From assembly GCF_024721175.1 (NCBI RefSeq), contig NZ_CP099402.1, positions 186,001 through 250,000 on the forward strand: a DNA stretch of 64,000 nt, in the 5' to 3' direction. Position numbers and translations under genes: made by a program. Below, piece after piece: positions 9,280-32,210 of the stretch. The number at the start of each line of letters is the position of its first letter. The stretch's first letter is position 1. Origin of the DNA: Rhizobium sp. Pop5. GTDB taxonomy: Bacteria > Pseudomonadota > Alphaproteobacteria > Rhizobiales > Rhizobiaceae. Below the pieces are notes generated by a model. That model ran no database searches, was not told the origin of the DNA, and saw only the letters and a list, made by a program, of their open reading frames with translations.

Positions 9280-10737
9280 CTACGGTTCGCGTATTGCGTT
9301 ATCCAGGCCGCGCAGCAGCGGGTACAGGAAATAGGAGATCACCGTGCGCTTGCCGACCTTGATTTCCGTGGACACGGTCATGCCGGGAAGCAGACGCACC
9401 GGCACGTCCGAAGCATTCAGCCTGGTATCGGCAAGCAGGATGCGGGCCTTGAAGAAGGGGGCGGCCGGCTGGCTTGGGGTGGCGGTCTGTTCCTGCTGGC
9501 CGGTCAGGAACGTGTCCTGGCTGATGGTGCGCACCTCGCCGGAGGCCGTGCCGTATTTCTGGAAGGGATAGGCGTCGAGCTTGATGCGGGCCTCCTTGCC
9601 GACGGCGATGCGGCCGATGTCGCGGGTGTTGATCGACACTTCCGCTTCGAGCGGCACGTTGATCGGCACCAGGGTGACGATCGGTTCGGCTTCGCGCACG
9701 ACGGAGCCGATGGAGCGCTGGGCGAGATCCAGCACGACAGCATCGGCGGGTGCCGTCAGCGATACCATGTTGCGGCGCAGTTCCATCTTCTTCAGTTCTT
9801 CATCGGCCATGTCGCGCTGGCCGCGCAGATCCACCAGTTGCTCCATCGCGGCGCGGCGGAAATCCTCGATGAAGGCCTGGCGGTCGGCTTTGAGCTTTGC
9901 ATAGGCATGCGCGGCCTCATCGGCCTTGCCGCGCACGGCCGTCAGATCGGATTCGACGTCGAGACGGGCGTCGCGCGAGCCGAGCATGGTAATCAACGAG
10001 CCGCTCTGCGTGTTGAAGAGCCGCTCGCGCGCGCCTTCGATCTGCGAGAGCGTGTCGCGCCGGTCGACGAGCACGGCCTCCTGGTTCTTGCTGGCGGCAA
10101 GTGCTGCCGACTGACCGGCGATCTGCTGCTCGAAATTCTGCAGCTGCGCCGTGTAGAAGGCCCGCCGCTGGCCGAAGAGCTGCACCTGCAGCATCTCGTC
10201 AGGGGTTTTTCCGGCCATGACGGTGTAGTCGTCGCCGGCAAGCTCCGCTTCGATGCGCTTCACCTGGGCATCGAGCGCGGTGAATTTCGCGTGCTGCTGG
10301 TCGACATCGGCCTGGCTGAAGGTGGCGTCGAGCGTCGCGAGCGTCTGGCCGGCATGCACCACCTCGCCGGCCTTCACATCGATCGTGCGGATGATCGAGG
10401 TCTCCAGCGGCTGGACGACGATGGTCGGCTGCGTGGTAACGAGCTTGCCCGGCGCAATCACCACCTCGTCGATTGATGAGACCGAGGCCCAGGTGATGGC
10501 GGCCGCAATCAGCGCCGTCACGCAATAGAGCGTCATGCGGGCAACGCGTGGCGGCGCACGTTCCTCGAGTTCCACCGCATCGGACTGGAATTCCGCGATA
10601 GCAGGCGGCAGCGGCGGGCGGGCTGCAAGTTCCCTGCCCTTGACTGCGGGGGCCTTGACTGCAGGCCCTTTGCCAGTGGGTCCCTTGTCTGTGGGGACCG
10701 GCATATTTTCGTCGGATTTTCTGATATGCGCGTTCAT
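9280..10737 (-). CDS. HlyD-family type I secretion periplasmic adaptor
   Basis: A 485-residue membrane-fusion protein. A short cytosolic N-terminus of low complexity (repeated KGP/KAPAVKG) leads to one membrane helix (about residues 68-88). Then come a lipoyl-like half (IAPGKLVTTQPTIVVQPLE), long coiled-coil arms (about residues 150-330) and the C-terminal beta-barrel/lipoyl closure (TAPADAVVLDLAQRSIGSVV and later LLPGMTVSTEIKVGKRTVISYFLYPL). It should bridge the ABC exporter to an outer-membrane TolC-like channel, which is not encoded here. The ATG at 10737 overlaps the TGA of the ABC gene (ATGA), so the two are translationally coupled. Confidence 0.92.
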   Translation of the reverse strand: MNAHIRKSDENMPVPTDKGPTGKGPAVKAPAVKGRELAARPPLPPAIAEFQSDAVELEERAPPRVARMTLYCVTALIAAAITWASVSSIDEVVIAPGKLVTTQPTIVVQPLETSIIRTIDVKAGEVVHAGQTLATLDATFSQADVDQQHAKFTALDAQVKRIEAELAGDDYTVMAGKTPDEMLQVQLFGQRRAFYTAQLQNFEQQIAGQSAALAASKNQEAVLVDRRDTLSQIEGARERLFNTQSGSLITMLGSRDARLDVESDLTAVRGKADEAAHAYAKLKADRQAFIEDFRRAAMEQLVDLRGQRDMADEELKKMELRRNMVSLTAPADAVVLDLAQRSIGSVVREAEPIVTLVPINVPLEAEVSINTRDIGRIAVGKEARIKLDAYPFQKYGTASGEVRTISQDTFLTGQQEQTATPSQPAAPFFKARILLADTRLNASDVPVRLLPGMTVSTEIKVGKRTVISYFLYPLLRGLDNAIREP

Positions 10738-12878
10738 GCGACCTGCCTCATCTGCTGGGCCCAAAGGTGGCGGTAGGTCATGCAGCGCGACACCAGCTGG
10801 TCGTGCCGGCCGATATCGGCGACCTTGCCCCGATCGATGACGAGAATGGCATCGGCATCCACAAGCGTCGAAAGCCGGTGCGAGACGATGACGACGGTGC
10901 GGCCGGCGGCGATCCGGCTCAGATTCTCGCGGATGATCGCCTCGCTGTCGGGGTCGAGCGCGCTCGTCGCCTCATCGAAGATCAGAAGTTTCGGATCGGT
11001 GATCAGCGCACGCGCGATCGCCAGCCGCTGCCTCTGGCCACCCGAGAGGTTGGCTGCGTTTTCTTCCAGCATCGTGTCGAAGCCGCGCGGCAGGCGCTCG
11101 ATGAATTCTTCCGCACCTGCGATGCGGGCGACCTCCATGATCTCCTCGATACTGGCATCGGGTTTTGCGGCGGCGATATTGTCGCGCACCGAGCCGCGAA
11201 ACAGGAAGTTATCCTGCAGCACAACGCCAATGCTGGTTCTCAAGTGGACGAGGTCGATCTCGCGGCTGTCATAGCCATCCATGCGCACCAGCCCTTCCTG
11301 GCTCTGATAGAGCCCCTGGATGAGCCGCGTGATGGTCGTCTTGCCCGAGCCGCTCTTGCCGACCACGCCGAAGACCGAGCCCGCCGGAATGGCGAAGGAA
11401 ACATTGTCGAGCGCAGGCGCGGCATCGGGAGCATAGCGGAAGGTGACCCGGTCGAATTCGATGCGGCCATGCAGATGCGGCCTGACACCACGCCCGCGGC
11501 CCGCCTGTTCCGGCCGCTGGTTCATGATCTCGCCGAGCATGCGCACGGAAAGCGCCACTTCCTGATATTCGTGCACCATGGTGACGATCTGTACGAGCGG
11601 TCCGGAGACGCGGCCGGCGAGCATGTTGAAGGCAACCAGTGCGCCGATCGTCATCGCACCGCTGAAGACATCGAGCGCGCCGAGACCGATGATCGCCACG
11701 CTCATCAGCTTTTCCAGCAATCCCGTCATCGACTGGGCGACGGTCGAGATTTTCTCGACCCGGAAGCGCACCGAGATCGACTGGGCCGAATAATCATCCC
11801 AGACCTTGCGCTGGCGCGGCTCCAGCGCCAGTGACTTGACGGTGCGCATGCCGTGCACCGTTTCGACAAGCAGGGCCTGCCGGTCGCCTTCGGCCTGGTA
11901 AAGCGCCTGCAGGCGACGCTGGAACGGCCCGACGAGCATCATCACAACAAGCCCGACGAGCGCGGCGAAACCGAGCACCACGAGCGTCAGCTTGACGCTG
12001 TAGAGAAGCAGGATCGGCACGAAGACGAAGAGCGAGACGCCGTCGAGCAGCGTCAGGAACAGCCGACCGGTCAGGAATTCGCGGATGCGCCCCGTCTGCT
12101 GCATATGCTTGACGAGAACGCCGGCCGAGGCCTGCTCGAAGAGCGAGATCGGCAGGTTGAGCAGATGGCCGAAGGTGCGCGTGGCGATCCGAATGTCGAT
12201 CCTGTTGGTGGCATAAAGCAGCAGATAGCGGCGCAGGAAACTGAAGGTCGCGTCGAAAACGAGCGCCACCGCGATACCGACCGTCAGGACAGTCAGCGTC
12301 GCATAGCTCTGATGCACGAGCACCTTGTCGATGACGAGCTGGAAAAACATCGGCGTCGTCAGCCCGAGGCCGTAAAGCACGAAGGCGGCGAGCGCCACAT
12401 CGCGGAAGAAGCTGCGCTGCCGGATGATTTCTGGAATGAACCAGCGGAAGCCGAAAGGCCGGTCCTCATCCGACATGCGATAGTTGCGCTTGAGCAAAAC
12501 CACCGATCCGAGCCAGGCCTTGCCGAATTGCTCCTCGCTCAGCAGCATGACTTCGGGGCGTGCAGCAAGCGGGTCGAGAACGCGGATCTTCTCATCCTCG
12601 CCCTCTCCGACGGCGCCGGCGATGACCACCCAGTTACCGTTCGAAAGTTCGGCAAGGGCCGGAAAGGCCTCGCCGAGCTGAAACAGGCCTCGCCAGTCGA
12701 GCGTCAGGTGCCTCGCCCTGAGGCCGGCATCCTTGGCCATCCGGAGCATCTGCCGCACGGCCACCGGATCGTTGCCGACGGCATAATCGTGCTGCAATCG
12801 CTCGGGCGAAAGATCGACGCCGTGATGACGCGCGACGAGCGCAAGACAGTGCAGGTTGGTATGCAGAAAACTATTCAT
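10734..12878 (-). CDS. Type I secretion ABC exporter (permease-ATPase) with degenerate C39-like domain
   Basis: A 714-residue half-transporter. Residues 1-130 form a C39-peptidase-like domain. In the alignment around CLALVARHHGVDLS the catalytic Cys position before it is not Cys, so this is a substrate-docking rather than a proteolytic domain, as in HlyB. About six membrane helices follow (residues 155-420). The ATPase has Walker A GKSGSGKTT, signature LSGGQRQRLAIARAL, Walker B LLIFDEATSALD and switch SHRLST. It powers export of unfolded proteins with HlyD. The nearby giant exoproteins are the obvious candidate substrates. The stop overlaps the adaptor start by ATGA. Confidence 0.94.
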   Translation of the reverse strand: MNSFLHTNLHCLALVARHHGVDLSPERLQHDYAVGNDPVAVRQMLRMAKDAGLRARHLTLDWRGLFQLGEAFPALAELSNGNWVVIAGAVGEGEDEKIRVLDPLAARPEVMLLSEEQFGKAWLGSVVLLKRNYRMSDEDRPFGFRWFIPEIIRQRSFFRDVALAAFVLYGLGLTTPMFFQLVIDKVLVHQSYATLTVLTVGIAVALVFDATFSFLRRYLLLYATNRIDIRIATRTFGHLLNLPISLFEQASAGVLVKHMQQTGRIREFLTGRLFLTLLDGVSLFVFVPILLLYSVKLTLVVLGFAALVGLVVMMLVGPFQRRLQALYQAEGDRQALLVETVHGMRTVKSLALEPRQRKVWDDYSAQSISVRFRVEKISTVAQSMTGLLEKLMSVAIIGLGALDVFSGAMTIGALVAFNMLAGRVSGPLVQIVTMVHEYQEVALSVRMLGEIMNQRPEQAGRGRGVRPHLHGRIEFDRVTFRYAPDAAPALDNVSFAIPAGSVFGVVGKSGSGKTTITRLIQGLYQSQEGLVRMDGYDSREIDLVHLRTSIGVVLQDNFLFRGSVRDNIAAAKPDASIEEIMEVARIAGAEEFIERLPRGFDTMLEENAANLSGGQRQRLAIARALITDPKLLIFDEATSALDPDSEAIIRENLSRIAAGRTVVIVSHRLSTLVDADAILVIDRGKVADIGRHDQLVSRCMTYRHLWAQQMRQVA

Positions 12879-12973
12879 GGCCCACCCGAAACAATACGAG
12901 ACCGCGGCTTGGATTTAAGTCGGGGCATCCTCCGCGCGTCCGGATGGACGCGCAGCGCTCCACACTCGGTTTA

Positions 12974-13282
12974 TCAGTTGAAGTTCGGCGAGGCGTTCGA
13001 CGCGCCGGCCTCCCCCGCCTGGATATCGGAGGCCGCCGCAGCCGACATATCGCCGATCCGGCGAACCGCACCCGCTTCGACCAACCCGCCGAGCGCCTTC
13101 TGCATGAGATCAACCGCATTGGCGAAGGCATCCACCGGCATGATGATGCGCTGGCGGAAGATCGGCTTCGGATTGTTGTTGGCGTCGCGGTCGGTGGCCG
13201 AGAGCGACATCAGGTCGATGCGCACGATCGTTCCGGTAATGGTGATTTCACCGATGCCATCTGCATAAAGTTCGCTGCTCAT
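12974..13282 (-). CDS. Small conserved protein of the type I secretion locus
   Basis: A 102-residue acidic, soluble protein without signal peptide. The middle part (IVRIDLMSLSATD through FRQRIIMPVDAFANAVDLMQKAL) has a beta-strand then helix pattern faintly like DUF3467 proteins, but I would not assign it. Residues 78-102 are Ala/Ser/Asn-rich and probably disordered. It lies 95 bp upstream of the ABC exporter gene on the same strand and just downstream of a cobW-like gene, so it is probably co-expressed with the secretion machinery; a role as cytosolic partner or regulator of export is only a guess. Confidence 0.7.
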   Translation of the reverse strand: MSSELYADGIGEITITGTIVRIDLMSLSATDRDANNNPKPIFRQRIIMPVDAFANAVDLMQKALGGLVEAGAVRRIGDMSAAAASDIQAGEAGASNASPNFN

Positions 13283-13330
13283 TGTTCTCTCTCCTGTTTG
13301 AAGTCAAAACACCTGTTCATCTTTGAATCG

Positions 13331-13375
13331 ACGCATCGCACCGAAAGCCGCTTCACACTTTTCGGTGCGATGCGT
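13331..13375. repeat. Intergenic palindromic repeat, copy 3, overlapping the end of the first cobW-like gene
   Basis: A perfect 16-bp inverted repeat: ACGCATCGCACCGAAA (13331-13346) and TTTCGGTGCGATGCGT (13360-13375), with a 13-nt GCCGCTTCACACT-type spacer. It shares the CACACTTTT core with the copies near 900-1010. It lies across the 3' end of the GTPase gene and supplies its last codons and stop, and could terminate transcription. Confidence 0.65.
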
Positions 13376-14585
13376 GCGTATCGTGCCGCCAGGCCGGAAA
13401 CGGATCGCGAAGGCCGACGGCGGTCTGCGGATCGAAACCCGTCTCCTCCCCGGTCAGGCAATCATCGAGTGCGGCCCAGATCGCCGCCTTGTCGAAGCCC
13501 GAACCGATGAAGACGAGCTCCTGGCGGCGGTCGCCCCAGACAACGTCCCAATGCCGGTCGATGAGCTGGCGGAATTGCGGAAAGCGCGGCCATTGCACCT
13601 GCGGCACGGAGGCCCACCAATATCCCCTGGTTTCGATGCGGCACTGGGTGCCGGCGATCGACAGCAGGCCGATCTCATCGGGCCTCGTCGCCAGCCAGAA
13701 ATGGCCCTTTGCGCGGATGAGGCCCGCCCATTTCCTGTCGAGGAAATCCTTGAGCCTCAGCGGCGCGAAGGGCCGGCGGCTGCGATAGACGAAGCTTGAA
13801 ATGCCGTATTCCTCTGTTTCCGGCACATGGTCGCCCCAGCCGAAGAGCTCCTTGTGCCAGAGCGGATGGCGGGCAGCCTTCGCCTCGCTGAAGAGGCCGG
13901 TATCGAGGATCGTGCCAAGCGGCACCTGGCCGAAAACGGCCTCGATGACCTGGGCATCCGGATTGAGTGCGGCGACGACCCGGCGAACCTCGGCAAGATC
14001 GGCGCAGGATACGTCGCCTGCCTTGTTGATGATGACGACGTCGGAAAATTCGATCTGCTCGACGAGCAGATCCACGAGCTTGCGCTCATCGTCCCCGTCC
14101 CGCCTCTCGCCGCGATCGGCCAGGAACTCGTCGCTCTGGTAATCGGCCAGCAGATTGACCGCATCGACGACGCAGACCATCGTGTCGAGACGTGCCACAT
14201 CGCAGAGCGCCGCCCCGCTTTCGTCGCGGAAGGAGAAGGTGGCTGCGACAGGCAGCGGTTCGGCAATGCCGGTGCCCTCGATCAGCAGATAGTCGAAGCG
14301 GCCGGCGGCTGCCAGACGCCGCACCTCGCTCAGGAGGTCCTCGCGCAGCGTGCAGCAGATGCATCCGTTGGTGAGCTCCACCAGCGTCTCGTCCGTGCGC
14401 AGGAGGTCTGCACCGCCCTCGCGCACGAGATCCGCATCGATGTTGACCTCGCTCATATCGTTGACGATGACAGCAACCCGACGACCCTCCCGATTACTCA
14501 GGACATGATTGAGGACAGTCGTCTTCCCAGCGCCGAGAAACCCGGCGAGAACTGTAACGGGCAATCTGTTGTCTGTACGCATCAT
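13353..14585 (-). CDS. COG0523 / CobW-family GTPase, putative metallochaperone (YciC/ZigA-like), copy 1
   Basis: A 410-residue G3E-family GTPase. Walker A is GFLGAGKTT near residue 14. The switch stretch [12 protein letters not shown], the metal-binding [12 protein letters not shown] (CxCC), and the base-specificity motif INKAGD follow. The C-terminal half has the ZigA/YciC-like ending [16 protein letters not shown] and DPFPAW. Relatives move zinc or other metals to client proteins, often under zinc limitation. After DPFPAW, where copy 2 stops, this protein has 11 extra residues encoded by a palindromic repeat. The gene lies 48 bp downstream of the first giant exoprotein gene. ATG 14585 was chosen over an upstream GTG because a GAGAG site precedes it. 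Confidence 0.9.
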
Positions 14586-14633
14586 CGATACTCTCACTCT
14601 TTACTCGATGCTTGGCTTACATCCGCGTGGGCG

Positions 14634-17600
14634 TTACGCCGCGAGCTGCGGTTTGAATCCCACGTCCACATAGTAGTTCGTGCTGTTATAGCTGGCGGTC
14701 GGGAACAGCCCGCCCGATCCATAGGCATAGACGCCGTTATTGCCGGCGGGCGCCTTCAGGTCCCCGTTCATCACGTCGCTGGCAAAGTAGTTGCCTGATG
14801 CCGAATAATTGCCTGATGTCGAGTAGGACACGACGTAGGTCGTACCCGCCTGGATGGCGATCTGCTGACTGAGCTGCGCGGTCTGCCAGCCGCTCGCCGT
14901 TTCGTTGTTGAAAGTGACGCTGCCGAGCAGAGTGCCCGAAGCCGTCCACAGATAGCCGCTGTGCGGGCCGGTATTGTCCGTACCCTTGTAAAAGCGGATG
15001 GCGGTGATCCAGCCGGCGGCATCGGCCTGGAATTTCATGCCTAGATTGACCGACTGGTTGTCGTTGACCGTGACGACCGAGGGCGTCGCGTTTGACGCAA
15101 AGAGGTTCTGCTCCGGTCCTGCGGCAGTGTTGTTGATGGTCAGCGCCACCTGAGCCGAAGCCGTGCCGCCCTTGCCGTCCGAGATCGTGTAGCTGAAGCT
15201 TGCCGGTCCGGCATAACCCGCCGTCGGTGTGAAGGTCACCGTCTGGGCCTGGGCATTCCAGGCGACCGAGCCATTGACCGCGCCACTGACGCCGGTAATC
15301 GTAAGTGCATCGCCATCGGCATCGCTGTCATTTGCCAGAAGCGCCGACGCCTGGATGGTGACAGGCGTGCCCGTATTGGTCGAGAAGCCGCTGTCGTTGG
15401 CGGCGACCGGAACCGCATTCTGTGCGCCCTGCTTGTAGAGCACATCAACCCAGTAGTTGGCGGCATTGTAGGAGGCGGTCGGGAACAGGCTGCCGCTGCC
15501 ATAGGCATAGACGCCGTTGCCGCCGCTGACCGAACTTGCCGGTGCCGTCAGCGGGCCGCTCGTGTGGTCCGTCGTGAAGTAGTTCCCCGTTGCCGAATAG
15601 AAGCCGTTGGAATGGTAGCTCGCCACATAGGTGGTGCCGGCCGTGACATTGATCGGCTGGGTGAAGGAAACCATCTGCCAGCCGCTCGCCGTCTCGCCGA
15701 TAAAGGTCGCCTGGGCCAGAAGCTGGCCGCTTGCCGTCCAGAGCGAGCCGACATGCGTGCCGGTATCCTGGGCGCTCTTGTAATAGGTGAGCCCGGTGAT
15801 CTGGCCGTTGGCGGACGCGATGAACTTGACGCCGAGTTCGACCGAGTTGGCGTCATTGGCGGCGGCAACCCCCGACGTATCTGCGCCTGTAAACAGGCTC
15901 GACGTCGTGCCACCGCCGGTCTGCGAATTGACCGTGAGGCTGACCGTGGCCGAAGCCGTTCCGCCAGCCCCATCCGAGATCGAATAGGAGAAGCTTGCCG
16001 CACCCGTATAACCCGCCGTCGGCGTGAAAGTGACGGATTTGGTCTGGCTGTTGAAGGTCACCGTTCCGTTGACCGCACCGTTGACGCCGGTGATGCTGAG
16101 CGGATCGCCATCGGCATCGGTGTCGTTTGCAAGCAGGCTGGCTGCGGCAATCGACAGCGCCGTGTTGGAATAGGTCGTGTAGCCATTGTCATTGGCGGCG
16201 ACCGGCGCCGTGTTGCCGGTCGATTGCTTGTAGACGACATCGACCCAGTAGTTCGTCGACTGATAGCTGGAAGTCGGGAAGGCCGAGCTCCCGACCGTGT
16301 AGACGCCGTTGCTGCCGGCAAGCGCCGTCAGCGAGCCATTGGTATGGGCTGAGGTGAAATAGTTTGCCGTCGCCACATAGGAGCCCGTGGTGCTGTAGGA
16401 GGCGACATAGGTCGTGCCGGCCGCGATATGCACCGCGTTGGCGAATGTCGCGGTCTGCCAGCCGTTCACCAATCCGCTGTCGGCGAAGCTGACGGTTGCA
16501 ACCAGCGTTCCATCAGCCGTCCACAGGGAGCCGGTGTGAGGTCCGGTATCGCCCGATGCCTTGTAGTAGCGGATGCCGGTAATCATGCCGCTGGACGAGG
16601 CTGCGAATTTCATGCCGAGTTCCATCGCCTGGCCGTCGTTGAAGCTTCCGCCCGTCGGCCCTTCGCTCGATGTAAACAGCGTTTCTCCGGTGGGACCCGG
16701 GTTGACGGTGAGGCTGACGGCACCCTGATCCGTGCCACCGCGCCCGTCCGACAGCGTATAGGTGAAGCTTGCCGGCCCCGAATAATTGCTGGTCGGCGTG
16801 AAGATGACGGTGCCGTTCTGCTTGTTGAGCGTCACCGTGCCGTTAACGGCGTTGCCGACGGCCGAAATCGTCAGCGCATCGCCATTGGGGTCCGTATCGT
16901 TTCCGACAAGCGAGGCGATTGGGATGGCGACGGTATCGTTGCCGGAGATGGTGAGCCCCGTATCGTCGGTCGCGACCGGCGCGCCGTTGGGACCGGCGTC
17001 GAAGACGACATCGACCCAGTAATTGGTGCCGGTGCCGGGGCTTTGGCCGGGGAAGGTGCCGGCAGTGGTGCCGTAGGCGAAGACGCCGCCGCCATCGACC
17101 GCCTTCACCGCGCCGCTGGCATAGGTGCCGCCGGTGAAATAATTGCCTGTCAGCGAGTAGTAGCCGCTGCTGTGATAGGAGGCCACATAGGTCGTGCCGG
17201 CCGCAATCTGGATCGGGCTCGCGAACATCACCGTCTGCCAGCCGGAGAGCGATTCATTGACGGACAGGCCTGATGCCAGCAAGGTTCCGTTGGCGCTCCA
17301 GAGGCTGACGGCATGGTCGCCGATATTGTAGAAGCCCTTGTAGAAGCGGATGCCCTCCACGAGGCCTGCAGTCGTCGTCTGGAAGCGCAGGCCGAGTTCG
17401 ACCGGGTCGCGATCGATCGCCACTTCGGTCGCGGGCTTTTCCGCGAGCGTCCAGAGGCCCGTCGTTGCCGGCAGGGTGACGGTGACCTGCTTGCCGGACG
17501 ACGGCGCCTCCATGTTGACGCTGTCGTCGACGGCGCGCGACATGATCGTATAGGTGCCGCTTGCCTGCACGACCCAGTTATAGCTCCAGCTCTCGCGGCC

Positions 17601-20024: not shown

Positions 20025-20288
20025 TCTGGCACCTTTGCCGAGGGAATGTACGACAGCAATCTGGGGTATGAGGGAGGTACTCCCTACGCCCATATGATGA
20101 CCCTCAACGCATACCCCAAGCCACGTTCGATCCGATCGCCTTTGCTCCTGGCTTCGACTTGGCGAAGCGAAAATTGCGTCCGGCGATTCCAAGGCTGTTG
20201 GTCTGCGTCTCCTCTCAATCGACCTTGACAATCGCGTCCAAGTCGAGGCGCTATCGGGCTGGCAAAGTCTTGGAAAAACGAGGGTAGG
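20025..20288. promoter_or_regulatory. Divergent promoter region of giant exoprotein 1 and the exported-protein gene
   Basis: This 264-bp gap should hold promoters for both directions. A 13-bp perfect palindrome, GGGAGGTACTCCC (20072-20084), lies about 50 nt upstream of the giant gene start and runs directly into CTACGCC (20084-20090), a heptamer that recurs in four other large promoter regions of the window. I could not assign convincing -35/-10 boxes. Confidence 0.4.
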
Positions 20289-20801
20289 ATGAGATTCAGC
20301 AGACCGGCAGTCGCAGGCATGGTTGGCGTGGCAGCGTGTGTGTTTGGTGCGTGCCTTGCGGCATCGCCTGCGCTCGCACAGGAAGTCGAGCCGCCCGCTC
20401 CATGGGTCAAGCTTACCGGTTCGCATGCCGGAGCGGTCGGAACATGCTCAATGATTGATGCGAGCGACATCGAGGCTTGTTACATGGTCCGGTGCGACGC
20501 CAAGAACGGTCTCATCTTCGAGATTGGCGATGCCACTGTTGGTGACATGGGCCTGCGAACGGCTCGCTTCGAGATTGGGAAGTACAAAGAGACGATCCGC
20601 CTCGACGGGAACAGCCCCGATCGGCGAACGATTACTCTCTCAAAGCATCCGAAGCTGCTTGCCGCCCTCACATCCGGCACTGATTTCGCCACCATGTTCG
20701 CCATCAAGGCCGGTGAGATAGATTACAGCACCGGCTTTGAACTTACGGACGCGCGAGACCAAATATCTCGCGTGGCAAAGAGCTGCCCAACCAAGCCGTG
20801 A
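20289..20801 (+). CDS. Exported small protein of unknown function
   Basis: A 170-residue protein with a clear Sec signal peptide (hydrophobic residues about 9-28, cleavage after ALAQ near residue 31). The mature part has four cysteines (CSM, ACYM, VRCD and the late SCPTKP), which could form periplasmic disulfides. The layout recalls invasion-associated locus B-type periplasmic proteins, but I see no firm family motif and leave it unassigned. GAGGG lies about 7 nt before the ATG. It is divergent from giant gene 1 and convergent with the second cobW-like gene, 24 bp away. Confidence 0.7.
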   Translation: MRFSRPAVAGMVGVAACVFGACLAASPALAQEVEPPAPWVKLTGSHAGAVGTCSMIDASDIEACYMVRCDAKNGLIFEIGDATVGDMGLRTARFEIGKYKETIRLDGNSPDRRTITLSKHPKLLAALTSGTDFATMFAIKAGEIDYSTGFELTDARDQISRVAKSCPTKP

Positions 20802-20825
20802 TGACGCGAAGGTCCACCGCCCGAG

Positions 20826-22010
20826 CTACCAGGCCGGAAACGGATCTTCGAGAGTGGTCCAGTCGCGCGGATCGGTGCTGGCGAGGCATCCGTCCAGTGC
20901 CGTCCGCACACCTTTCTCGTCCATATCGACACCGATAAAAACCAATTCCTGCCGACGGTCGCCCCAGGCACTGTCCCACCGGCTCTCGAGATGCTGACGA
21001 AACTGCTGATGGGGCGGCCAGTCTTGCCGGGGCACGGCTGCCCACCAGAGCCCCATGGGCTCGCAGCGCCGTTGCACTCCGGCAGCCGAGATCAGGCCCA
21101 CATGACGCGGGCGGGTGGCAAGCCAGAAGTGGCCCTTGGCACGCATCACCCCCGGCCAGGGTTCGTCCAGAAATGCACGAAACCGCTTCGGGTCGAAGGG
21201 ACGCCTCGTGCGATAGACAAAGCTCGATACCCCGTATTCTTCCGTCTCCGGGACATGGTCGCCCGGGCTGTACAGTTCTTTGTGCCACAACGGGTGGGCG
21301 GCGGCTTTTGCTTCATCGAAGAGGCCCGTATTCAGGATGGCTGCAAGAGAAACTTCGCCGAAGTCCGTCTCCACCTGGCGGGCATCCGGGTTGAGGGCCG
21401 CCACGACCATGCGGACTTCCGCGCGCATCTCCTCGCTGGCGTCCGAGATCTTGTTGATCACGACGACATCGGCAAACTCGATCTGGTCCACCAACAGGTC
21501 TATGAGTGTCCGCCGGTCTTCGCTGTCCCGCTGCAGGCCGCGGTCGGCAAGCAGATCGGCGCTGCTGTAGTCCGCCAACAGGCTTGCGGCGTCGACGACG
21601 GTCACCATCGTGTCGAGCTTCGCGAAATCGGAGAGCGAAACACCTTTCTCGTCGCAGAATGAAAAGGTGGCGGCGATCGGGCATGGCTCGGCAATACCGG
21701 TCCCCTCTATCAGCAGATAGTCGTATCGCCCTTCTTCGGCCAGTCGCCGTACTTCCGCCAGCAGGTCGTCGCGCAGGGTGCAGCATATGCAGCCGTTGCT
21801 GAGCTCGACCAATGTCTCCGTCGTATGCGACAGGTTGCAGCCGCCGTCCCGGATGAGACTGGCGTCTATGTTCACTTCGCTCATATCGTTGACGATGACG
21901 GCGACGCGCAAGCCCTCACGATTCATCAGAACGTGGCTGAGAAGCGTCGTCTTGCCGGCGCCGAGAAAGCCGGTGAGCACTGTCACGGGTAGCCGGGCGA
22001 TCCCGTTCAT
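20826..22010 (-). CDS. COG0523 / CobW-family GTPase, putative metallochaperone (YciC/ZigA-like), copy 2
   Basis: A 394-residue paralogue of the GTPase at 13353-14585. It keeps [39 protein letters not shown] and the ending [16 protein letters not shown], then LEDPFPAW, where it stops. A GGGAG site lies 7 nt before ATG 22010; the frame is open 25 codons further but that part is not family-like. It is 102 bp downstream of giant gene 2, in the same relative position as copy 1 to giant gene 1, so gene pair and order are duplicated. Expected role: GTP-dependent metal delivery, metal and client not determined. Confidence 0.9.
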
Positions 22011-22112
22011 CGATATCTCCCGGATATGGACATTCGCTGCGATCGTCGCCGCGGCGGGCATTTGCGTCGTATGAACCTCATTCAAATCCCGTTCCCGACC
22101 TCCCCCGATCCT

Positions 22113-25100
22113 TCACGCGGCAAGCTGCGGCCGGAAGACCACGTCGGCATAGTAATTCGCTGAATTGAAAGTGCTGGTCGGGAAGAGACCTGCGGTGGCA
22201 GAGCCCCCATAGGCATAGAGGCCGTTGCCGCTGGCCGGCGCCGTCAGCGGACCGCTGGTGACGGCGGCGGTGAAGAAGGCGTCGGTCGCCACATAGCCGC
22301 CTGTCGTGTGATACGAGGCGACATAGGTCGTGTTGGCGGCAATGGTGTAGGGCGTCGTGAAGTTCGCCGTCTGCCAGCCGCTTGCCGTGGTGTTGGTGAA
22401 GGTGGCGGTGGCGAGTTTGGTGCCGGTGGAGCTCCACAGGTCGACGACGTTCTGGCCGTTGTCGTTGGCGCTGCGGTAGAACCTGATGCCGGTAATGTCG
22501 CCGGCGGCGCTCGAGGTGAACTTGACGCCGAGTTCGAGTTGCTGGCCGTCGTTGAGGTTCGTCTGGGTCGGCGTGCTGGAGGCAGAAAACAGGCTGTAGG
22601 TCGCTGGCGCCGTCCCGGCAGCGATAGTGAAAGTCTCGTTGGCCGAGAGACCGCCGATATCGGTTGCCGTGACCTTGACACCATAGTTGCCTGCTGTCGT
22701 CGGCGTGCCGGAGAAGGTGCGCGTCGAGGCGTTGAAGGTCAGCCAGGCAGGAAGCGCCGTGCCGTCGGCAGCCGTTGCCGCGTAGGTCAGCGTTTCACCG
22801 CTGTCGACATCGGTGAAGGTTGTCGTCGGCAGCGTGTACGAGAAGGCGGAGCCAAGGGTGGCATTCTGCGTCGCCGTTTGGACGGCGAGCACCGGTGCGT
22901 CATTGGCGCCATGGATGGTGATGGTGAGATTTGTCGTGGAGGTGGCGCCGGCGGTATCGCGCATCGTGTAGCTGAAGACTTCATTCAGCGTGTTGGTCGA
23001 CAGGCGCAACGCCTGCACGGCGGAATTGGCCTCGTTGATCGTATAAGTATAGGTGCCCGATGCATTGAGAACGAGGCTGCCATAAGTGCCGTTCAGGGCC
23101 GAGCCAAGCGTGCCTGAGGTCGCGCCGAAGCTGACGGCGCTCACCGTCTTGGTGTCGCCAGCATCGGGATCGGTGTCGTTGGTCAGCACGTTGCCGCTCG
23201 CAACCACACCACCCGAACCATTGGCGACACCACCCTTTTCGGTCGCATCCCCCGCATCGGCAACCGCCGTCGGCGCCGTGTTGTTCGTATTCGTGGGGTT
23301 GAAGACCACGTCGGCCCAGTAATTGGTGGCGCCAAAAGTGGAATTCGGGAAAATGCCGGCGGTGGCGGAGCCGCCATAGCGGTAAACGCCGTTGCCGGTG
23401 GCTGTTGCCGTCAGCGGCCCGCTGGTGACGGCGGCGGTAAAGAAATTGGCGGTCGCCACATAGGCGCCTGTCGTGTGATACGAGGCGACATAGGTCGTGT
23501 TGGCGGCAATGGTGTAGGGCGTCGTGAAGTTCGCCGTCTGCCAGCCGCTCGCCGTGGTGTTGGTGAAGGTGGCGGTGGCGAGTTTGGTGCCGGTGGAGCT
23601 CCACAGGTCGACGACGTTCTGGCCGTTGTCGTTGGCGCTGCGGTAGAACCTGATGCCGGTAATGGTTCCGCCGATGCTCGAGGTGAATTTGACGCCGAGT
23701 TCGAGTTGCTGGCCGTCGTTGAGGTTCGTCTGGGCCGGCGTGCTGGAGGCGGAGAACAGGCTGTAGGTCGATGGCCCCGCCGCAGCGGCGATAGTGAAAG
23801 TCTCGTTGGCGGAGAGGCCGCCGAGATCGGTTGCCGTGACCTTGACGCCGTAGTTGCCTGCCGTCGTCGGCGTGCCCGAGAAGGTGCGCGTCGAGGCGTT
23901 GAAGGAGAGCCAAGCGGGCAATGCGGTGCCGTCGGAGGCCGTTGCCGAATAGGTCAGCGTCTCGCCGCTGTCGACATCGGTGAAGGTTGTCGTCGGCACG
24001 ACGAAGGAGAAGGCGGAGCCGAGGGTGGCATTCTGCGTCGCCGTTTGTACGGCGAGCACCGGTGCGTCATTGGCGCCATGGATGGTGATGGTCAGATTTG
24101 CCGTGGAGGTGGCGCCGGCGGTATCGCGCATCGTGTAGCTGAAGACTTCATTCAGCGTGTTGGTCGACAGGCGCAACGCCTGCACGGCGGAATTGGCCTC
24201 GTTGATCGTATAAGTATAGGTGCCCGATGCATTGAGAACGAGGCTGCCATAAGTGCCGTTCAGGGCCGAGCCAAGCGTGCCTGAGGTCGCGCCGAAGCTG
24301 ACGGCGCTCACCGTCTTGGTGTCGCCAGCATCGGGATCGGTGTCGTTGGTCAGCACGTTGCCGCTCGCAACCACGCCGCCCGAACCATTGGCGACGCCGC
24401 CCTTCTCGGTCGCATCCCCCGCATCGGCAACCGCCGTCGGCGTCGTGTTGCCGGGAACCGACACGGCAATGTTGAAGGTCTCGTTGGCGGCAAGGCCGCC
24501 TAGGTCGGTTGCCGTGACCTTGACACCATAGGTCCCCCCTGACGTCGGCGTGCCGGAGAAGGTGCGCGTCGAGGCGTTGAAGGTCAGCCAGGCGGGTAGC
24601 GCGCTGCCGTCGGAAGACGTTGCCGCGTAAGCCAGCGTTTCACCGCTGTCGACATCGGTGAAGGTCGTCGTCGGCAGCGTGTAGGAGAAGGCGGAGCCGA
24701 CGGCGGCATTCTGCGTCGCCGTCTGGACGGCGAGCACCGGTGCGTCATTGGCGCCATGGATGGTGATGGTCAGATTTGTCGTGGAGGTGGCGCCGGCGGT
24801 ATCGCGCATCGTGTAGCTGAAGACTTCATTCAGCGTGTTGGTCGACAGGCGCAACGCCTGCACGGCGGAATTGGTCTCGTTGATCGTATAGGTATAGGTA
24901 CCCGATGCATTGAGAACGAGACTGCCATAGGTGCCGTTCAGTGCCGAGCCGAGCGTGCCCGATGTCGCGCCGAAGCTGACGGCACTCACCGTCTTGGTGT
25001 CGCCAGCATCCGGATCGGTATCGTTGGTCAGCACGTTGCCGCTCGCAACCACGCCGCCCGAACCATTGGCGACACCGCCCTTTTCGGTCGCATCCCCCGC

Positions 25101-27449
25101 ATCGGCAACCGCCGTCGGCGCCGTGTTGTTCGCATTCGAGGGATTGAACATCACATCGACCCAGTAGTTCGTCTGGTCGAAGCTGGTCGTCGGGAACGCG
25201 CTGTTGCCATACCTATAGACACCGTTGCCGCTTGCCGGCGCCGTCAGCGGACCACTCGTCACATTGGCGGTGAAGTAGTTGGCGGTCGTCGAATAGTTGC
25301 CGACATTCGTATGATAAGATGCCGTATAGGTCTGCCCGGCTGTCAGCGTCACCGGGCTCGTGAAAGTCGCGGTCTGCCAGCCGCTGGCAGTCTCGTTGGT
25401 GAAGGTGAGGGTCGCAAGCCGCGTACCCGTGCTTGACCAGAGCGACCCGGTATGTGTGCCCGTATCCAGGCTACTCTTGTAAAACCGGATACCGCTGACC
25501 GTGCCCGCCACGGAGGACTGGAATTTGACCCCGAGCTCGACGGCTGCAGCATCGTTGGTGTTGACGACTGCGGGCGTCGCCGCACCGAAGAGAGACGTAT
25601 AAGTCGGCCCGGTGACGGTGACAGTGCGCCCCGCCGAGGGTGTCTCGAGATTGATGCTATCGTCCACCGCCCGCGACCGGATCGTATAGGTCCCTGCAAT
25701 CGCCGGCTGCCACGTATAGGTCCAGTTCTCGTCGCCCGTCGCCGGATGCCAGCTCGCGCCATTGTCGGTCGACACCTCGACGCTGGCGATGACCCCGCCG
25801 CCCGTGTCGGCAGCGGTGCCCGAAATCGTCACGGTGGAACCAGCTGCCACCGTGCCGGGTACCGTGATGGTGGAGGTCGGCGCAGTATGGTCCGACGAGG
25901 CAGTCGCGGCGGTAAGCCCGGATTGCAGCGTGCCCGGCTGAATGCCCATATCGGCAAGCAGATTGACCATTGCCTGCTGCACCCGAGGATCGGTGGGAGT
26001 CGCCTCGTTATCGTGATTATCGCTCAGGCCCCATGTCCAATAGACCGTACCGGCGCCGAACACCAGCGCACCGCTGGGGGCGCGATAGAGGGTCAGATTG
26101 TGGGTCGCGTTCGCACTGCCGGTCGTGTTGCCGTAGTCGAGCAAATAGGTGGTGACAGGCAGCGTCGTCGATGACAGCTTGACGAGCCCGGCCGGATCGA
26201 AGCCATTGTCAGGCGCTTCATCCCACTCGTAACCAAGATAATTCTTGGTGAGCGTTGCCGTCTGGCCGGGCTGAAGATTTGCGACGCTCGTATTGCGCCA
26301 GAAGCGCAGGTTGGCATCATCATAGGCAACCTTGATGGCGCCAAGATTGCCGCCGACGTCGTCGACCTTGAACAATTGGCCGGTCAGCGAGTTCTCGGGA
26401 TTGCCGCCGCCGATGGCAGGCGGGCTGAGACGCGGATCGCGGAAGGTCCCCGTCCATTCGTTGGAAGGATCGAGGCTGACACCCGGAGGACCCCATGTCT
26501 CCTTGTAGGAGATCAGGGTGCGGTAAGGTGTTCCGTCGGCGCTGTAGGCATTGCCCCAACGGGTACGCCAATAGACCTCGTTACCGCTCCAGAACATCAG
26601 ATTGACGCCCGCATCGCGTGCGGCTTCGACATTGGTCCTCTGCTGTCCCGACCAGTATTCGTCGTGCCCGGCATCGATGTAAGTCTTGTGATTGAGCAAC
26701 AGGCTGCCATAGCGATCGACGTCGATGCCCGACATATAGGAGACGTCGTAACCGTTCTGTTCCAGCCAGTAGATGCCTGCATATTCGGCGCCGAACAAAT
26801 AGTCCTGCGGGCCGGCATAGGTACCGACCCCGTCGCGGGTCGCAATCGGCCTGTTATAGCTGAGCGCATAGGCGCGGCCTGCCCCCTGCCCCGTCGCCGG
26901 GCCGTTGCCGCCGTAGAAGTTTGCGCCACCCCAGCCGTTGTAAGCTTGCCAGGTCTCGTCAGAGGTCTGGAAGACGACGTCGCTGTGGCTGGCGTCGTCG
27001 CGCACGATGAACGGGATCTGATTTTCGCCGAAGGTGCCGTCCTGACGCACGAGCTTGGCGATATAGACGCCTGAGACGGCATCGCTAGGTACGGCCCAGG
27101 ACGCCGAGACGGCCCAGTTGCCGGCGTCCACCGTGCCGGTCGTGGCATTGCGCAGCGGATTGGGCTGCGTCTGCAATCCGGTATGCTGTATGGTCGTGAC
27201 CTTGCGGGCGCCCATGCCGCCATAATAGCCGAGCCGATAGATATCGATCCGATAGTTGGTGGAATTGGTATTGATCTTGAAGTTGATCGTGCCGCCGTTG
27301 TCGACGCTGATGTCGGTCGCAAACCCTTCGATGTTAGTGCTGGCAGTGTCGATGCCCCACTCGCTCTCCGGATTGCCCTGCTTCTGGTTTTCCAGCACGA
27401 TCGCGTTGCTCGCCACCGCCGCGGCGGCGGCCAGATCTTGCGTTGCCAA
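22113..27449 (-). CDS. Giant exoprotein 2, main reading frame: dimethylformamidase-like domain plus VCBS, Ig-like and DUF4082 repeats
   Basis: About 1778 residues in this frame. The dimethylformamidase-like domain occupies about residues 17-510 (GYYGGMGARKV, WQAYNGWGGANFY, AGHDEYWS, FWSGNEVYW, GAGTVYWTWGLSDNH). An Ig-like domain, DUF4082, VCBS, Ig-like (He_PIG type), VCBS, Ig-like, DUF4082, VCBS, Ig-like and a last DUF4082 follow, ending RPQLAA. The apparent first codon is a TTG with no ribosome binding site, and family homology begins almost at once. The preceding low-complexity N-terminus is found one base out of frame in 27473-28455, so the gene is probably frameshifted. No RTX repeats. 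Likely a paralogue of giant protein 1 and a type I secretion substrate, if expressed. Confidence 0.8.
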   Translation of the reverse strand: MATQDLAAAAAVASNAIVLENQKQGNPESEWGIDTASTNIEGFATDISVDNGGTINFKINTNSTNYRIDIYRLGYYGGMGARKVTTIQHTGLQTQPNPLRNATTGTVDAGNWAVSASWAVPSDAVSGVYIAKLVRQDGTFGENQIPFIVRDDASHSDVVFQTSDETWQAYNGWGGANFYGGNGPATGQGAGRAYALSYNRPIATRDGVGTYAGPQDYLFGAEYAGIYWLEQNGYDVSYMSGIDVDRYGSLLLNHKTYIDAGHDEYWSGQQRTNVEAARDAGVNLMFWSGNEVYWRTRWGNAYSADGTPYRTLISYKETWGPPGVSLDPSNEWTGTFRDPRLSPPAIGGGNPENSLTGQLFKVDDVGGNLGAIKVAYDDANLRFWRNTSVANLQPGQTATLTKNYLGYEWDEAPDNGFDPAGLVKLSSTTLPVTTYLLDYGNTTGSANATHNLTLYRAPSGALVFGAGTVYWTWGLSDNHDNEATPTDPRVQQAMVNLLADMGIQPGTLQSGLTAATASSDHTAPTSTITVPGTVAAGSTVTISGTAADTGGGVIASVEVSTDNGASWHPATGDENWTYTWQPAIAGTYTIRSRAVDDSINLETPSAGRTVTVTGPTYTSLFGAATPAVVNTNDAAAVELGVKFQSSVAGTVSGIRFYKSSLDTGTHTGSLWSSTGTRLATLTFTNETASGWQTATFTSPVTLTAGQTYTASYHTNVGNYSTTANYFTANVTSGPLTAPASGNGVYRYGNSAFPTTSFDQTNYWVDVMFNPSNANNTAPTAVADAGDATEKGGVANGSGGVVASGNVLTNDTDPDAGDTKTVSAVSFGATSGTLGSALNGTYGSLVLNASGTYTYTINETNSAVQALRLSTNTLNEVFSYTMRDTAGATSTTNLTITIHGANDAPVLAVQTATQNAAVGSAFSYTLPTTTFTDVDSGETLAYAATSSDGSALPAWLTFNASTRTFSGTPTSGGTYGVKVTATDLGGLAANETFNIAVSVPGNTTPTAVADAGDATEKGGVANGSGGVVASGNVLTNDTDPDAGDTKTVSAVSFGATSGTLGSALNGTYGSLVLNASGTYTYTINEANSAVQALRLSTNTLNEVFSYTMRDTAGATSTANLTITIHGANDAPVLAVQTATQNATLGSAFSFVVPTTTFTDVDSGETLTYSATASDGTALPAWLSFNASTRTFSGTPTTAGNYGVKVTATDLGGLSANETFTIAAAAGPSTYSLFSASSTPAQTNLNDGQQLELGVKFTSSIGGTITGIRFYRSANDNGQNVVDLWSSTGTKLATATFTNTTASGWQTANFTTPYTIAANTTYVASYHTTGAYVATANFFTAAVTSGPLTATATGNGVYRYGGSATAGIFPNSTFGATNYWADVVFNPTNTNNTAPTAVADAGDATEKGGVANGSGGVVASGNVLTNDTDPDAGDTKTVSAVSFGATSGTLGSALNGTYGSLVLNASGTYTYTINEANSAVQALRLSTNTLNEVFSYTMRDTAGATSTTNLTITIHGANDAPVLAVQTATQNATLGSAFSYTLPTTTFTDVDSGETLTYAATAADGTALPAWLTFNASTRTFSGTPTTAGNYGVKVTATDIGGLSANETFTIAAGTAPATYSLFSASSTPTQTNLNDGQQLELGVKFTSSAAGDITGIRFYRSANDNGQNVVDLWSSTGTKLATATFTNTTASGWQTANFTTPYTIAANTTYVASYHTTGGYVATDAFFTAAVTSGPLTAPASGNGLYAYGGSATAGLFPTSTFNSANYYADVVFRPQLAA
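22891..23288. repeat. VCBS-encoding DNA repeat, copy A
   Basis: One of three near-identical stretches of about 395 bp inside giant gene 2, each beginning ACCGGTGCGTCATTGGCGCC on the + strand. It codes for a VCBS-type domain (GTYGSLVLNASGTYTYTIN). Sequence identity at DNA level is very high, including synonymous positions. Confidence 0.85.
24058..24450. repeat. VCBS-encoding DNA repeat, copy B
   Basis: Second copy of the repeat described at 22891-23288, separated from it by DNA coding for one Ig-like and one DUF4082 domain. Differences from copy A are scattered single bases. Confidence 0.85.
24735..25132. repeat. VCBS-encoding DNA repeat, copy C
   Basis: Third copy, separated from copy B by DNA for a single Ig-like domain. 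A few more synonymous changes are visible than between A and B (for example ATAGGTATAGGTA for ATAAGTATAGGTG), suggesting an older split. Confidence 0.85.
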
Positions 27450-28455
27450 CGACCGCTGCGCAGAAGGTTGAGGGTGGCGTCGTCACCGAGCCGGAAAGAA
27501 TAGCTCTACCCTTGGTGCCGGTTCCCGTACCCAACTCTCCGCCGCCGGGCAATGATCCGTTGGAGATGGCCGAGTTTATCCAGTCTGCGGTTCCGCGCCA
27601 GCCCGCGAACGAGGATACGTCACGATCGAGAAGCGGATCGCTGACCGAGGCGCCGATGGCCTTCTTGATCGTCGACACATAGTCCGGCCCGTCGGTAAAT
27701 TTGGTCCCCGGCAACTGACCGTCCTGCTGAAGCAGGCCGCTGCCATGAGCCCAATCGAGAATCCGCGTGGGGGAGGTATAGTAGCCGCATCCGCACACCC
27801 CAAAGGGCATGCCAACCGCCAGCGCGTTCGGCCCGACATGATGCGCACTCGACTGCGCCGATGGCGTCGATTCGAGAATGACGACCTTGCCCGAGTGAGA
27901 ACGCTCGCCCCCTATGGTCGCAGAATCTTGCCCCGAACCTGTCGGCGCAGGGTTCTGCGGCAAATACGGAGCCAGAGGATCGTCGCCTATGAAGCTCGTT
28001 CCAGTATAGGCGCGCGGAAGGGATGGAGCTGCCCCGAACACAACTCTGTCCGCGTCCGGCGCGAAATGCACAAAACTTGGCGTATGAGCGGATGATGCGG
28101 ACGCGGCCAGATCACCGCTGCGCTCTCCTATTTCGCGATTGATTGTGAAAGCGTCAGGCAAGGGCGGCACTACGAGCCTATCGTCGGCCCGACCGTCCGC
28201 GTCGCCGTTCACGCCCTCTTTCTGTCCAACGTCACGCTCGCTGAGCGCCGCGTCCTTATGGGGATCGTCGACAAGGGCGCCCTGATTGTTTCCAGTCGCA
28301 GTTTGCACCGATGCCGCAAGTTGAGCGCTATCCCCGTGCCTGTCGGCAGGCTTGCGCGGCTTTCCTTTTTCGCCTCCGCCGACAGTGAACCATCGGGGAA
28401 CCAATGCATCCACCAGGAGTGAGCGCGAAGTCCAGCGGCGAGCGTTGCGATACAT
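27334..28455 (-). CDS. N-terminal part of giant exoprotein 2, in a different frame
   Basis: A 373-codon frame starting at ATG 28455 with a GAGAGG site about 9 nt upstream. Residues 1-325 look coding: basic start (MYRNARRWTSRSLLVDALV), a disordered acidic/Ala-rich part, and a more ordered stretch around residues 200-310 (VGMPFGVCGCGYYTSPTRI, FAGWRGTADWINSAISNG) that I do not recognise. After about 27480 the frame turns into shadow Arg/Gly-rich sequence, while the +1 frame continues as Ala-rich linker and dimethylformamidase-like domain. One extra base between about 27449 and 27482 would explain both. Whether it is mutation, sequencing error or recoding cannot be told here. Confidence 0.6.
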   Translation of the reverse strand: MYRNARRWTSRSLLVDALVPRWFTVGGGEKGKPRKPADRHGDSAQLAASVQTATGNNQGALVDDPHKDAALSERDVGQKEGVNGDADGRADDRLVVPPLPDAFTINREIGERSGDLAASASSAHTPSFVHFAPDADRVVFGAAPSLPRAYTGTSFIGDDPLAPYLPQNPAPTGSGQDSATIGGERSHSGKVVILESTPSAQSSAHHVGPNALAVGMPFGVCGCGYYTSPTRILDWAHGSGLLQQDGQLPGTKFTDGPDYVSTIKKAIGASVSDPLLDRDVSSFAGWRGTADWINSAISNGSLPGGGELGTGTGTKGRAILSGSVTTPPSTFCAAVVGNARSGRRRGGGEQRDRAGKPEAGQSGERVGHRHCQH

Positions 28456-29007
28456 AGCGGGGGTACCTCTCGCAAGATTATCAGGATCATCTATCAGGAT
28501 CGCTTCATACGAAGCTCTGAAGTATAGTCGAAAAACAGGCGAGTATATCCTACGCCTTTTGCTCTATCGGCGGCATCCTTTGGAACGGCCGCGCCGCAGG
28601 GCCAAGAAATGGGCGAGACAGCTGAAGTCACGAAGCCGTGTATTGACGGTTCGGGCGACGGCAAAGGCCGTTGGGATCGCGGCATCTCCGATCGGCCACG
28701 GGCCGGTCCAGCGCCGTACCCCTTCGCCGCCCTTCGCGGCGAGCGCGCCTATTTCTGCGTGCATAAGCTTTGATTTTCAAAGATAATGCCTCTTTGCCGC
28801 GCAGGGATATATGCATCTGGTCGACATGGGGTGAAGCACTCGCCCCCACCTCATCAATAGTGATGAGGCAAAGCAAACGGCCTTCACCTTCCTCAAGGCT
28901 TCGCCAGGCTGCAAACTAACGATGCGGTTTCGGGCCTGTCGTCCGGCCGTCGAACAGCGTCAAGGCATTGGACCGGCATCCGTTTAAGGATGTTTTGCAG
29001 GCGAGAT
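28456..29007. promoter_or_regulatory. Divergent promoter region between giant gene 2 and the exoF-like gene
   Basis: 552 bp without a convincing gene. It contains the shared heptamer CTACGCC at 28550-28556 (followed by TTTT) and a 7-bp inverted repeat, CCTCATC (28849-28855) and GATGAGG (28862-28868), about 140 nt upstream of the exoF-like start. Base composition is lower in GC than in the flanking genes. No terminator or RNA gene was recognised. Confidence 0.45.
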
Positions 29008-30339: not shown

Positions 30340-30448
30340 CCCGCGACGTGCACGTGTTCTCAACAAAGTTGGAGCGGAGGTTCGAGCGCCATCAAGGCGC
30401 TCAGGCCGCATGCCTCAAAGAATCTAACCTGGCAGCTAGGGTCGAGTG

Positions 30449-31957: not shown

Positions 31958-31960
31958 GAA

Positions 31961-31985
31961 AAGCGCGTATCGGGTGATGCGCGCT
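31961..31985 (+). terminator. Hairpin downstream of the flippase gene
   Basis: A 10-bp stem with one G-U pair, AGCGCGTATC (31962-31971) and GATGCGCGCT (31976-31985), loop GGGT, directly after the flippase stop. There is no T-tract, so it is a terminator-like hairpin rather than a textbook one. A near-identical hairpin lies at 32160-32183. Confidence 0.5.
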
Positions 31986-32159
31986 CAGACTGCTGACAAA
32001 CCAGCGCAAAACCCGCGACGTCATCCTCGGCCTTGTGCCAAGGATCTGTCACGATCCAATTAAATGTCTGAAAGTAAACGTTTTCCTGTCAAGCAATCGC
32101 CGTGGCCAGATGCTCGACACAAGGCCGAGCATGACGGAGGAGGCTTCGTCAACAAGTTG

Positions 32160-32183
32160 AGCGCGCATCGGATGATGCGCGCT
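32160..32183 (-). terminator. Hairpin downstream of the nucleotide-sugar operon
   Basis: A perfect 10-bp stem, AGCGCGCATC (32160-32169) and GATGCGCGCT (32174-32183), loop GGAT, lying 27 bp beyond the stop of the last gene of the minus-strand operon. Its sequence is nearly the same as the hairpin at 31961-31985, so both convergent transcripts may end in copies of one element. The rest of 31986-32159 shows nothing recognisable. Confidence 0.5.
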
Positions 32184-32210
32184 TTCCTGATGTCGTATCC
32201 ACCGCGGAGT

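Follow-up and report, generated by a model that had tools for sequence, protein, structure and literature searches.

The rhizobial exporter genes bltDE were named by Krehenbrink and Downie. According to its available text, the giant proteins pRL90159 and pRL90161 are predicted substrates of this exporter, a repeated motif of ~140 amino acids (aa) was noted in the predicted substrates, and a bacteriocin-like role was guessed because the exporter resembles those of bacteriocins (PMC2275737), an idea repeated in the available text of a review (PMC10925705). The system as published consists of a predicted exporter and two giant substrates, with no mention in the available text of an enzyme domain, a pairing with GTPases or a Cys-X-Cys (CxC) motif, and the terms CobW, formamidase, pRL90160 and pRL90162 never occur in the main text of PMC2275737. 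In the present study, a homologous locus was analyzed in a 64,000-nucleotide stretch (the window) of a 0.95-Mb Rhizobium contig (Rhizobium sp. Pop5, NZ_CP099402.1, positions 186,001 to 250,000), showing the same genes, order and neighbors as the BltDE locus (pRL90159-pRL90165) on plasmid pRL9 of R. johnstonii (leguminosarum) 3841. Read 5' to 3', the minus strand encodes two giants, each followed by a COG0523 GTPase (giant 1 and its GTPase come first), and then a 102-aa protein (P102), a type I ABC exporter and an HlyD adaptor. All seven genes that a first-pass annotation of the window had listed in order on one strand were recovered, and this order is not due to chance because it recurs in related genomes. 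The same annotation knew of no described system of this make-up, which does not hold for the locus and its predicted substrates, already published (PMC2275737), but does hold for the pairing of giant and GTPase as far as the available text goes; a literature search with combined queries also found, among the best-ranked matches, no description of COG0523 GTPases paired with dimethylformamidase (DMFase)-type giants.

The explanation favored here, tentatively and at somewhat short of an even chance, is that the giant is an exported amide hydrolase and that a ZigA-derived COG0523 GTPase loads metal into, or acts on, its CxC. Across the loci compared, the presence of the GTPase follows the CxC motif and not the DMFase-type site of the giant. 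For this comparison, CxC was counted from 160 residues before to 600 residues after the domain start, and the GTPase within 9 kb, in 126 entries of giants or relatives, including at least six loci entered twice. An intact GTPase was detected in 107/126 entries, every one of which had CxC (107/107), whereas CxC was found in 0/10 fully visible entries without GTPase, namely the actinobacterial giants L121-L123, the freestanding proteins L127 and L128, and the giants L185, L194, L195, L196 and L197. L186 and L193, at contig ends, showed neither GTPase nor CxC; the five entries with CxC and no visible GTPase, L076 included, were all cut at an end, and in L015 the GTPase was cut by the contig end. 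The motif occurs in three placements: as CSC, CNC or CGC in a domain insertion of the giant-2 lineage (84 entries), as CGC in the N-terminal part of the giant-1 lineage (21 entries), and as CNC/CHC in a third loop (two entries, La6 and G958). Moreover, Rhizobium sp. T1470 (L126) retains only a C-terminal remnant of the GTPase, and Trp replaces the first Cys of the CxC. Other Cys spacings from 0 to 5 were absent from the domain of either class (36 representatives), and one poorly aligned column also separated the two classes, only after four residues had been pooled.

Pfam analysis revealed PF20254 (DMFA2_C), DUF4082 and Ig/cadherin repeats in both giants, DUF4082 matching four stretches of giant 2 and three of giant 1. 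PF20254 scored 341.7 and 324.6 bits against a cut-off of 27, bearing out the shared N-terminal enzyme-like domain of the first-pass annotation. The published ~140-aa motif is evidently DUF4082. The catalytic domain shares its fold with two enzymes of solved structure, the dimethylformamidase of Paracoccus and the Burkholderia-type N-acetyl-(R)-beta-phenylalanine acylase (PDB 6lvb, 8huy), and residues equivalent to Y399, Y440, H519, E521 and N547 were present in 54/54 alignment rows, with a register at Y440 that varies with the alignment used; on alignment, the giants carry a DMFase/acylase-type domain with a predicted Tyr/Tyr/Glu (+His, Asn) metal site. The known enzymes are smaller (~775 aa) and, as far as tested, have no DUF4082 repeats, exporter or linked COG0523 gene, whereas the giants lack their pentraxin-like insert and align before and after it. 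Replacement of the iron ligand Tyr440 by the CSC of giant 2 was considered and ruled out, as a deeper alignment places Tyr183 there; because Tyr183 occupies the Tyr440 position, the CxC is additional to the predicted metal site. The giants are mostly Cys-poor, with zero Cys among the 1,778 residues of the giant 1 body. PDB searches with DUF4082 and P102, and a PHROGs search, returned nothing informative. The original suggestion for BltDE, that the giants are bacteriocin-like proteins, draws on the exporter similarity reported in the available texts (PMC2275737, PMC10925705) and is scarcely credible for DMFase-type proteins with intact active-site residues, given also that, when the seven genes were scanned with Pfam and NCBIfam, neither the giants nor P102 matched a bacteriocin or immunity family.

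The first-pass annotation had placed the GTPase in the service of the dimethylformamidase iron site. This was not supported: no such GTPase was seen within the examined flank (up to 1.5 kb) of 27 other PF20254 loci, and the same predicted site residues are retained in freestanding enzymes and in giants lacking the GTPase, so the GTPase is not required for the Tyr/Tyr/Glu site as such. A related possibility is that the GTPase nevertheless metallates this site, the CxC being a docking or relay point for the chaperone and not a metal site of its own. Such a role would agree with the intact site residues of the giants and with a GTPase that follows the giant, but DMFase-type genes and giants without GTPase have the same residues, and an extended relay would have to reach one site from three places, making this possibility unlikely.

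The pairing was further assessed across genomes. Of 213 relatives from named genomes, the 80 best were examined, a choice favoring close kin. An intact GTPase adjoined the giant in 75/80, and P102, ABC and HlyD all accompanied it in 74/80; the contig or examined stretch ended beside the giant in L015, L049, L053 and L054, and in L076 the GTPase-P102-ABC-HlyD block was found on a different contig from the giant. A less biased sample of 297 genomes of the order contained 23 giants in 20 genomes, with the GTPase adjacent in 16/23 (one of these across the two ends of a single contig), absent for six (G712, G716, G829, G869, G894 and G964) and undecidable in G940, leaving 22 decidable giants. The giant of G716 is cut downstream, and its genome is still without any GTPase match. 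Unlinked giants, which the first-pass annotation had named as counting against its idea, thus make up 6/22 decidable giants, but the same six also lack CxC. The pair was also observed without this exporter nearby, in Microvirga (L087), Bradyrhizobium (L125), G361, G576, G560, G958 and a marine Paracoccaceae plasmid (L124), with a different ABC/HlyD pair (26-35% similar) within the same stretch in G576 and G560. In G361, G576, G560, G958 and L124 the GTPase lies upstream of the giant, so that it occurs before or after the giant depending on the locus. Conversely, G712 has exporter, P102 and giant, and neither GTPase nor CxC. Because pairs occur without the exporter nearby and the exporter and P102 of G712 occur without GTPase, the GTPase belongs with the giant, not with the exporter, and the unit of giant and COG0523 GTPase recognized in the first-pass annotation persists without the exporter nearby and in either gene order. 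Outside the order, the class-wide sample contained a giant only in G095. For the third lineage, only La6 exceeded 50% identity among the 15 plasmid matches listed, and only G958 was as close among 130 genomes. DMFase-DUF4082 giants that are 50-55% identical and have no COG0523 neighbor were also found on Paenarthrobacter/Arthrobacter plasmids (L121, L122 and L123), next to genes for a ZIP transporter, a multicopper oxidase, ArsR regulators and P-type ATPases.

With regard to export, HlyB-type ABC and HlyD genes lie in the operon, with profile matches to TIGR01843 (311.8 bits, cut-off 208.65) and TIGR01846 (691.8 bits, below the cut-off of 725.55), and the C39-like domain of the ABC exporter apparently has no catalytic Cys. 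[RK]PQLAA or a close variant ends most giants with a linked exporter (window 14637-14651 and 22116-22130) and is a candidate export signal. Similar C-termini also occur in Bradyrhizobium giants without the exporter. No leader was recognized in our reading of the N-termini of the window giants. P102 had no Pfam or NCBIfam match; 353 relatives were found at E <= 0.001, none of the 120 listed being named beyond hypothetical, and one relative is fused to a CobW_C domain fragment. As G712 has P102 without GTPase, P102 goes with the exporter and may be a secretion chaperone. Alternatively, the GTPase could act on CxC in another manner, by keeping the giant unfolded for export, by redox protection of its only paired cysteines, or by anchoring. 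Many linked giants have few other cysteines, and giants with Sec-like leaders (actinobacterial L121 and L194, on our reading) have no GTPase, both in line with such a role; however, G712 has neither GTPase nor CxC yet has exporter, P102 and giant, so export as such needs neither, and this alternative seems a little less likely still than metallation of the Tyr/Tyr/Glu site.

Both GTPases of the window showed the Pfam domains cobW and CobW_C and, as the first-pass annotation had reported, an intact GCICC motif. Their best NCBIfam match was ZigA (NF038288; 566 and 564 bits), and because these scores are below the equivalog cut-off of 600 the proteins are termed ZigA-like, not ZigA. GTPase motifs and GCxCC were present in 37/37 linked rows of the tree set. 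Linked GTPases share 60-68% identity with free ZigA-like proteins; they differ from the ZigA/YciC type in adjoining a giant, forming their own clade and having no Zur box. The GTPases of the giant-1 and giant-2 lineages fall in one clade, and that of the third lineage stands apart from the other linked GTPases in the approximately unbiased (AU) test with G958 (p 0.01), though not without it (p 0.27), weakening the case that the GTPase was recruited twice. Giants 1 and 2 represent separate old lineages, both paired with a GTPase lineage of their own, and not the duplicated module of the first-pass annotation; a recent tandem duplication was ruled out by the separate old lineages of giants and of GTPases in the trees. 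Another CobW-domain gene, the chromosomal RL4362 of R. leguminosarum 3841, is listed in the available text of PMC11406972 as required for root attachment.

Metal-starvation co-regulation had been proposed as an alternative, and Zur-type palindromes (a consensus pattern, controlled by its enrichment at free zigA genes) were searched for in the 400 bp upstream of genes with <=2 mismatches. They occurred upstream of 19/28 unlinked ZigA-like genes and 0/103 linked GTPase genes, and 95 giants gave 2 hits versus 1 in shuffled sequence, the latter scan being fairer because the 400 bp before downstream-placed GTPases are mostly giant coding sequence. Of the five GTPases placed upstream of their giant, one (G576) matched the pattern, at 2 mismatches. 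In this genome, the chromosomal zigA (L163, G000:C2:2393556-2394704), beside znuA, has two palindromes, the only sites in the genome with <=1 mismatch. Zinc-starvation co-regulation of giant and GTPase, the latter as a spare ZigA, would suit the ZigA-like subfamily and the actinobacterial giants near metal-handling genes; because the linked genes lack the Zur boxes that free zigA genes have, it is very improbable, and Zur co-regulation was rejected.

The coordinates of the locus are given in Table 1. The GTPases adjoin their giants as the first-pass annotation had described, at gaps of 27 and 36 bp (longest open reading frames, ORFs) and not the 50-100 bp it gave; the start of giant 2 is uncertain and perhaps lies near 19967. 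UP1, the N-terminal part of giant 1, is in a different frame from the giant 1 body here and is fused with it as one ORF in 16/16 relatives having it. A C run near 27473 differs in length by one base from that of R. vallis (L008), and the frameshift makes UP1 a separate ORF; giant 1 is frameshifted in this assembly or misread, and the cause may be a sequencing error.

Table 1. Features of the giant-GTPase-exporter locus (window coordinates)
Feature	Position	Strand	Remarks
UP1, N-terminal part of giant 1	27334..28455	-	no Pfam match; CGC at 27787-27795
Giant 1 body	22113..27449	-	DMFase-type domain 26010-27251, Ig, DUF4082, cadherin/VCBS repeats; C-terminus RPQLAA
ZigA-like COG0523 GTPase of giant 1	20826..22085	-	GCICC at 21780-21794
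Giant 2	14634..20426	-	DMFase-type domain 17889-19145, Ig, four DUF4082; C-terminus KPQLAA
Cys-Ser-Cys of giant 2	18738..18746	-	insertion after second Tyr of predicted metal site
ZigA-like COG0523 GTPase of giant 2	13353..14597	-	GCICC at 14352-14366
P102, 102-aa protein, no assigned family	12974..13282	-	Pfam/NCBIfam scans, relatives
Type I ABC exporter, HlyB-like, BltD equivalent	10734..12878	-	ABC_membrane, ABC_tran, C39-like (Pfam)
HlyD family adaptor, BltE equivalent	9280..10764	-	profile match
Adjoining polysaccharide genes (context, outside the unit)	28990..37730	not assigned (.)	profile matches

The adjoining genes encode an export protein, a Wzx-like protein, two DegT aminotransferases, an epimerase, two hexapeptide acyltransferases and a Gfo/Idh/MocA oxidoreductase, and the same neighbors were found in N324, WSM1325 and 3841. 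The polysaccharide locus next to the module in the R. leguminosarum group encodes two aminotransferases, an oxidoreductase and acyltransferases, the kind of enzyme set expected to make N-acylated amino sugars, which would suggest such a sugar here. Partial cassettes flank L050, L054, the GTPase-less giants L195-L197 and the third lineage (L198), and La6 lies within another polysaccharide cluster. At least two homologs of the window's polysaccharide genes were detected in 21/108 module loci (including at least six entered twice) versus 0/20 control stretches, each 20 kb long and cut from ten genomes at round-number positions; outside the R. leguminosarum group, the linkage was seen for few D2 loci. 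The giant may trim N-acyl groups of an extracellular polysaccharide, which is offered as a plausible guess and not as a finding. In R. indicum, a 628-aa DMFase-like protein (L127, 5886-8551) stands beside polysaccharide genes at the place of the module in relatives, with just 27 residues of UP1 remaining. The polysaccharide locus of the window also encodes a 776-aa right-handed beta-helix protein (44833-47163, NosD-like match).

Several observations weigh against the explanation that the GTPase loads or acts on the CxC of an exported amide hydrolase. In contrasts on the domain tree (L193, whose contig ends inside the giant, being excluded from the GTPase trait), three were for, none against and one not differing (p 0.25), and the CxC-GTPase association, not significant by this measure, is suggestive. 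L114, one of 22 freestanding PF20254 proteins checked, has CGC near the domain end and no such GTPase in 20 kb, and the actinobacterial giants have CPC further along, in the DUF4082 repeats, and no GTPase. AlphaFold gave a predicted local distance difference test score (pLDDT) of 49.5 for the D1 lineage, and the CSC loop of giant 2 was modeled at pLDDT <50, too low to place it relative to the active site. Furthermore, the polysaccharide linkage is weakened, being recurrent and not general, and in the available text a bltD mutant showed no changed supernatant band (PMC2275737). The small number of contrasts, together with the one GTPase clade of the two larger lineages, would also suit a GTPase unrelated to CxC and inherited with it by descent, the correlation being an accident of few lineages. 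This is improbable, though, for a motif at three different protein positions, with joint decay of GTPase and CxC in L126 and a third-lineage GTPase that stands apart in the AU test (with G958).

In the favored explanation, amides would be hydrolyzed by the DMFase/acylase-type domain and its Tyr/Tyr/Glu (+His, Asn) metal site, the GTPase would act on the CxC before or during export, and the giant would exit via the HlyB/HlyD-type exporter (BltDE), with DUF4082 and Ig/cadherin modules probably retaining it on the cell surface or within the matrix and N-acyl groups on extracellular polysaccharide as its possible substrate. Type I substrates travel unfolded, and a metal on the CxC, whichever it may be, could in principle pass a type I exporter because a three-residue site needs no fold. 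A bolder combination, rather unlikely to hold as a whole, is that ZigA was recruited, probably twice, and, free of Zur, loads a CxC metal claw onto the exported giant amidase before export; the claw would have arisen at three protein positions, been lost where the GTPase decays, and carried its metal through the type I exporter in the unfolded chain. If true, this would run against the view that cytoplasmic metallation is impossible for type I substrates, and entry of metal into the CxC before type I export would widen the view of how exported metalloproteins acquire metal. Clients have been established for few COG0523 GTPases only, according to the available text of PMC9164220; here, a client and the residues involved are indicated by genomes in which the pairing is naturally present, absent or decayed, cases that serve as controls, and the target of the GTPase becomes a simple mutant test in laboratory rhizobia. 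In addition, amide hydrolysis would be a likely chemistry for a rhizobial exporter until now labeled a bacteriocin system.

Nitrile hydratase holds its metal on a CSC motif, and acetyl-CoA synthase has a CGC motif. In the available texts, Nha3 is a COG0523 activator of Fe-type nitrile hydratase (PMC9164220, PMC7193024), a dedicated GTPase adjoining an enzyme of amide/nitrile chemistry, as with the giants. By likeness to Nha3, the simplest reading is that the GTPase probably loads or checks metal at the CxC. Fe-type nitrile hydratase has an unrelated fold and is cytoplasmic, and Nha3 comes from another COG0523 subfamily; as such, the comparison is one of working principle with no homology claimed, the shared features being a CxC and a linked COG0523 gene, found together in all 107 entries with an intact GTPase.
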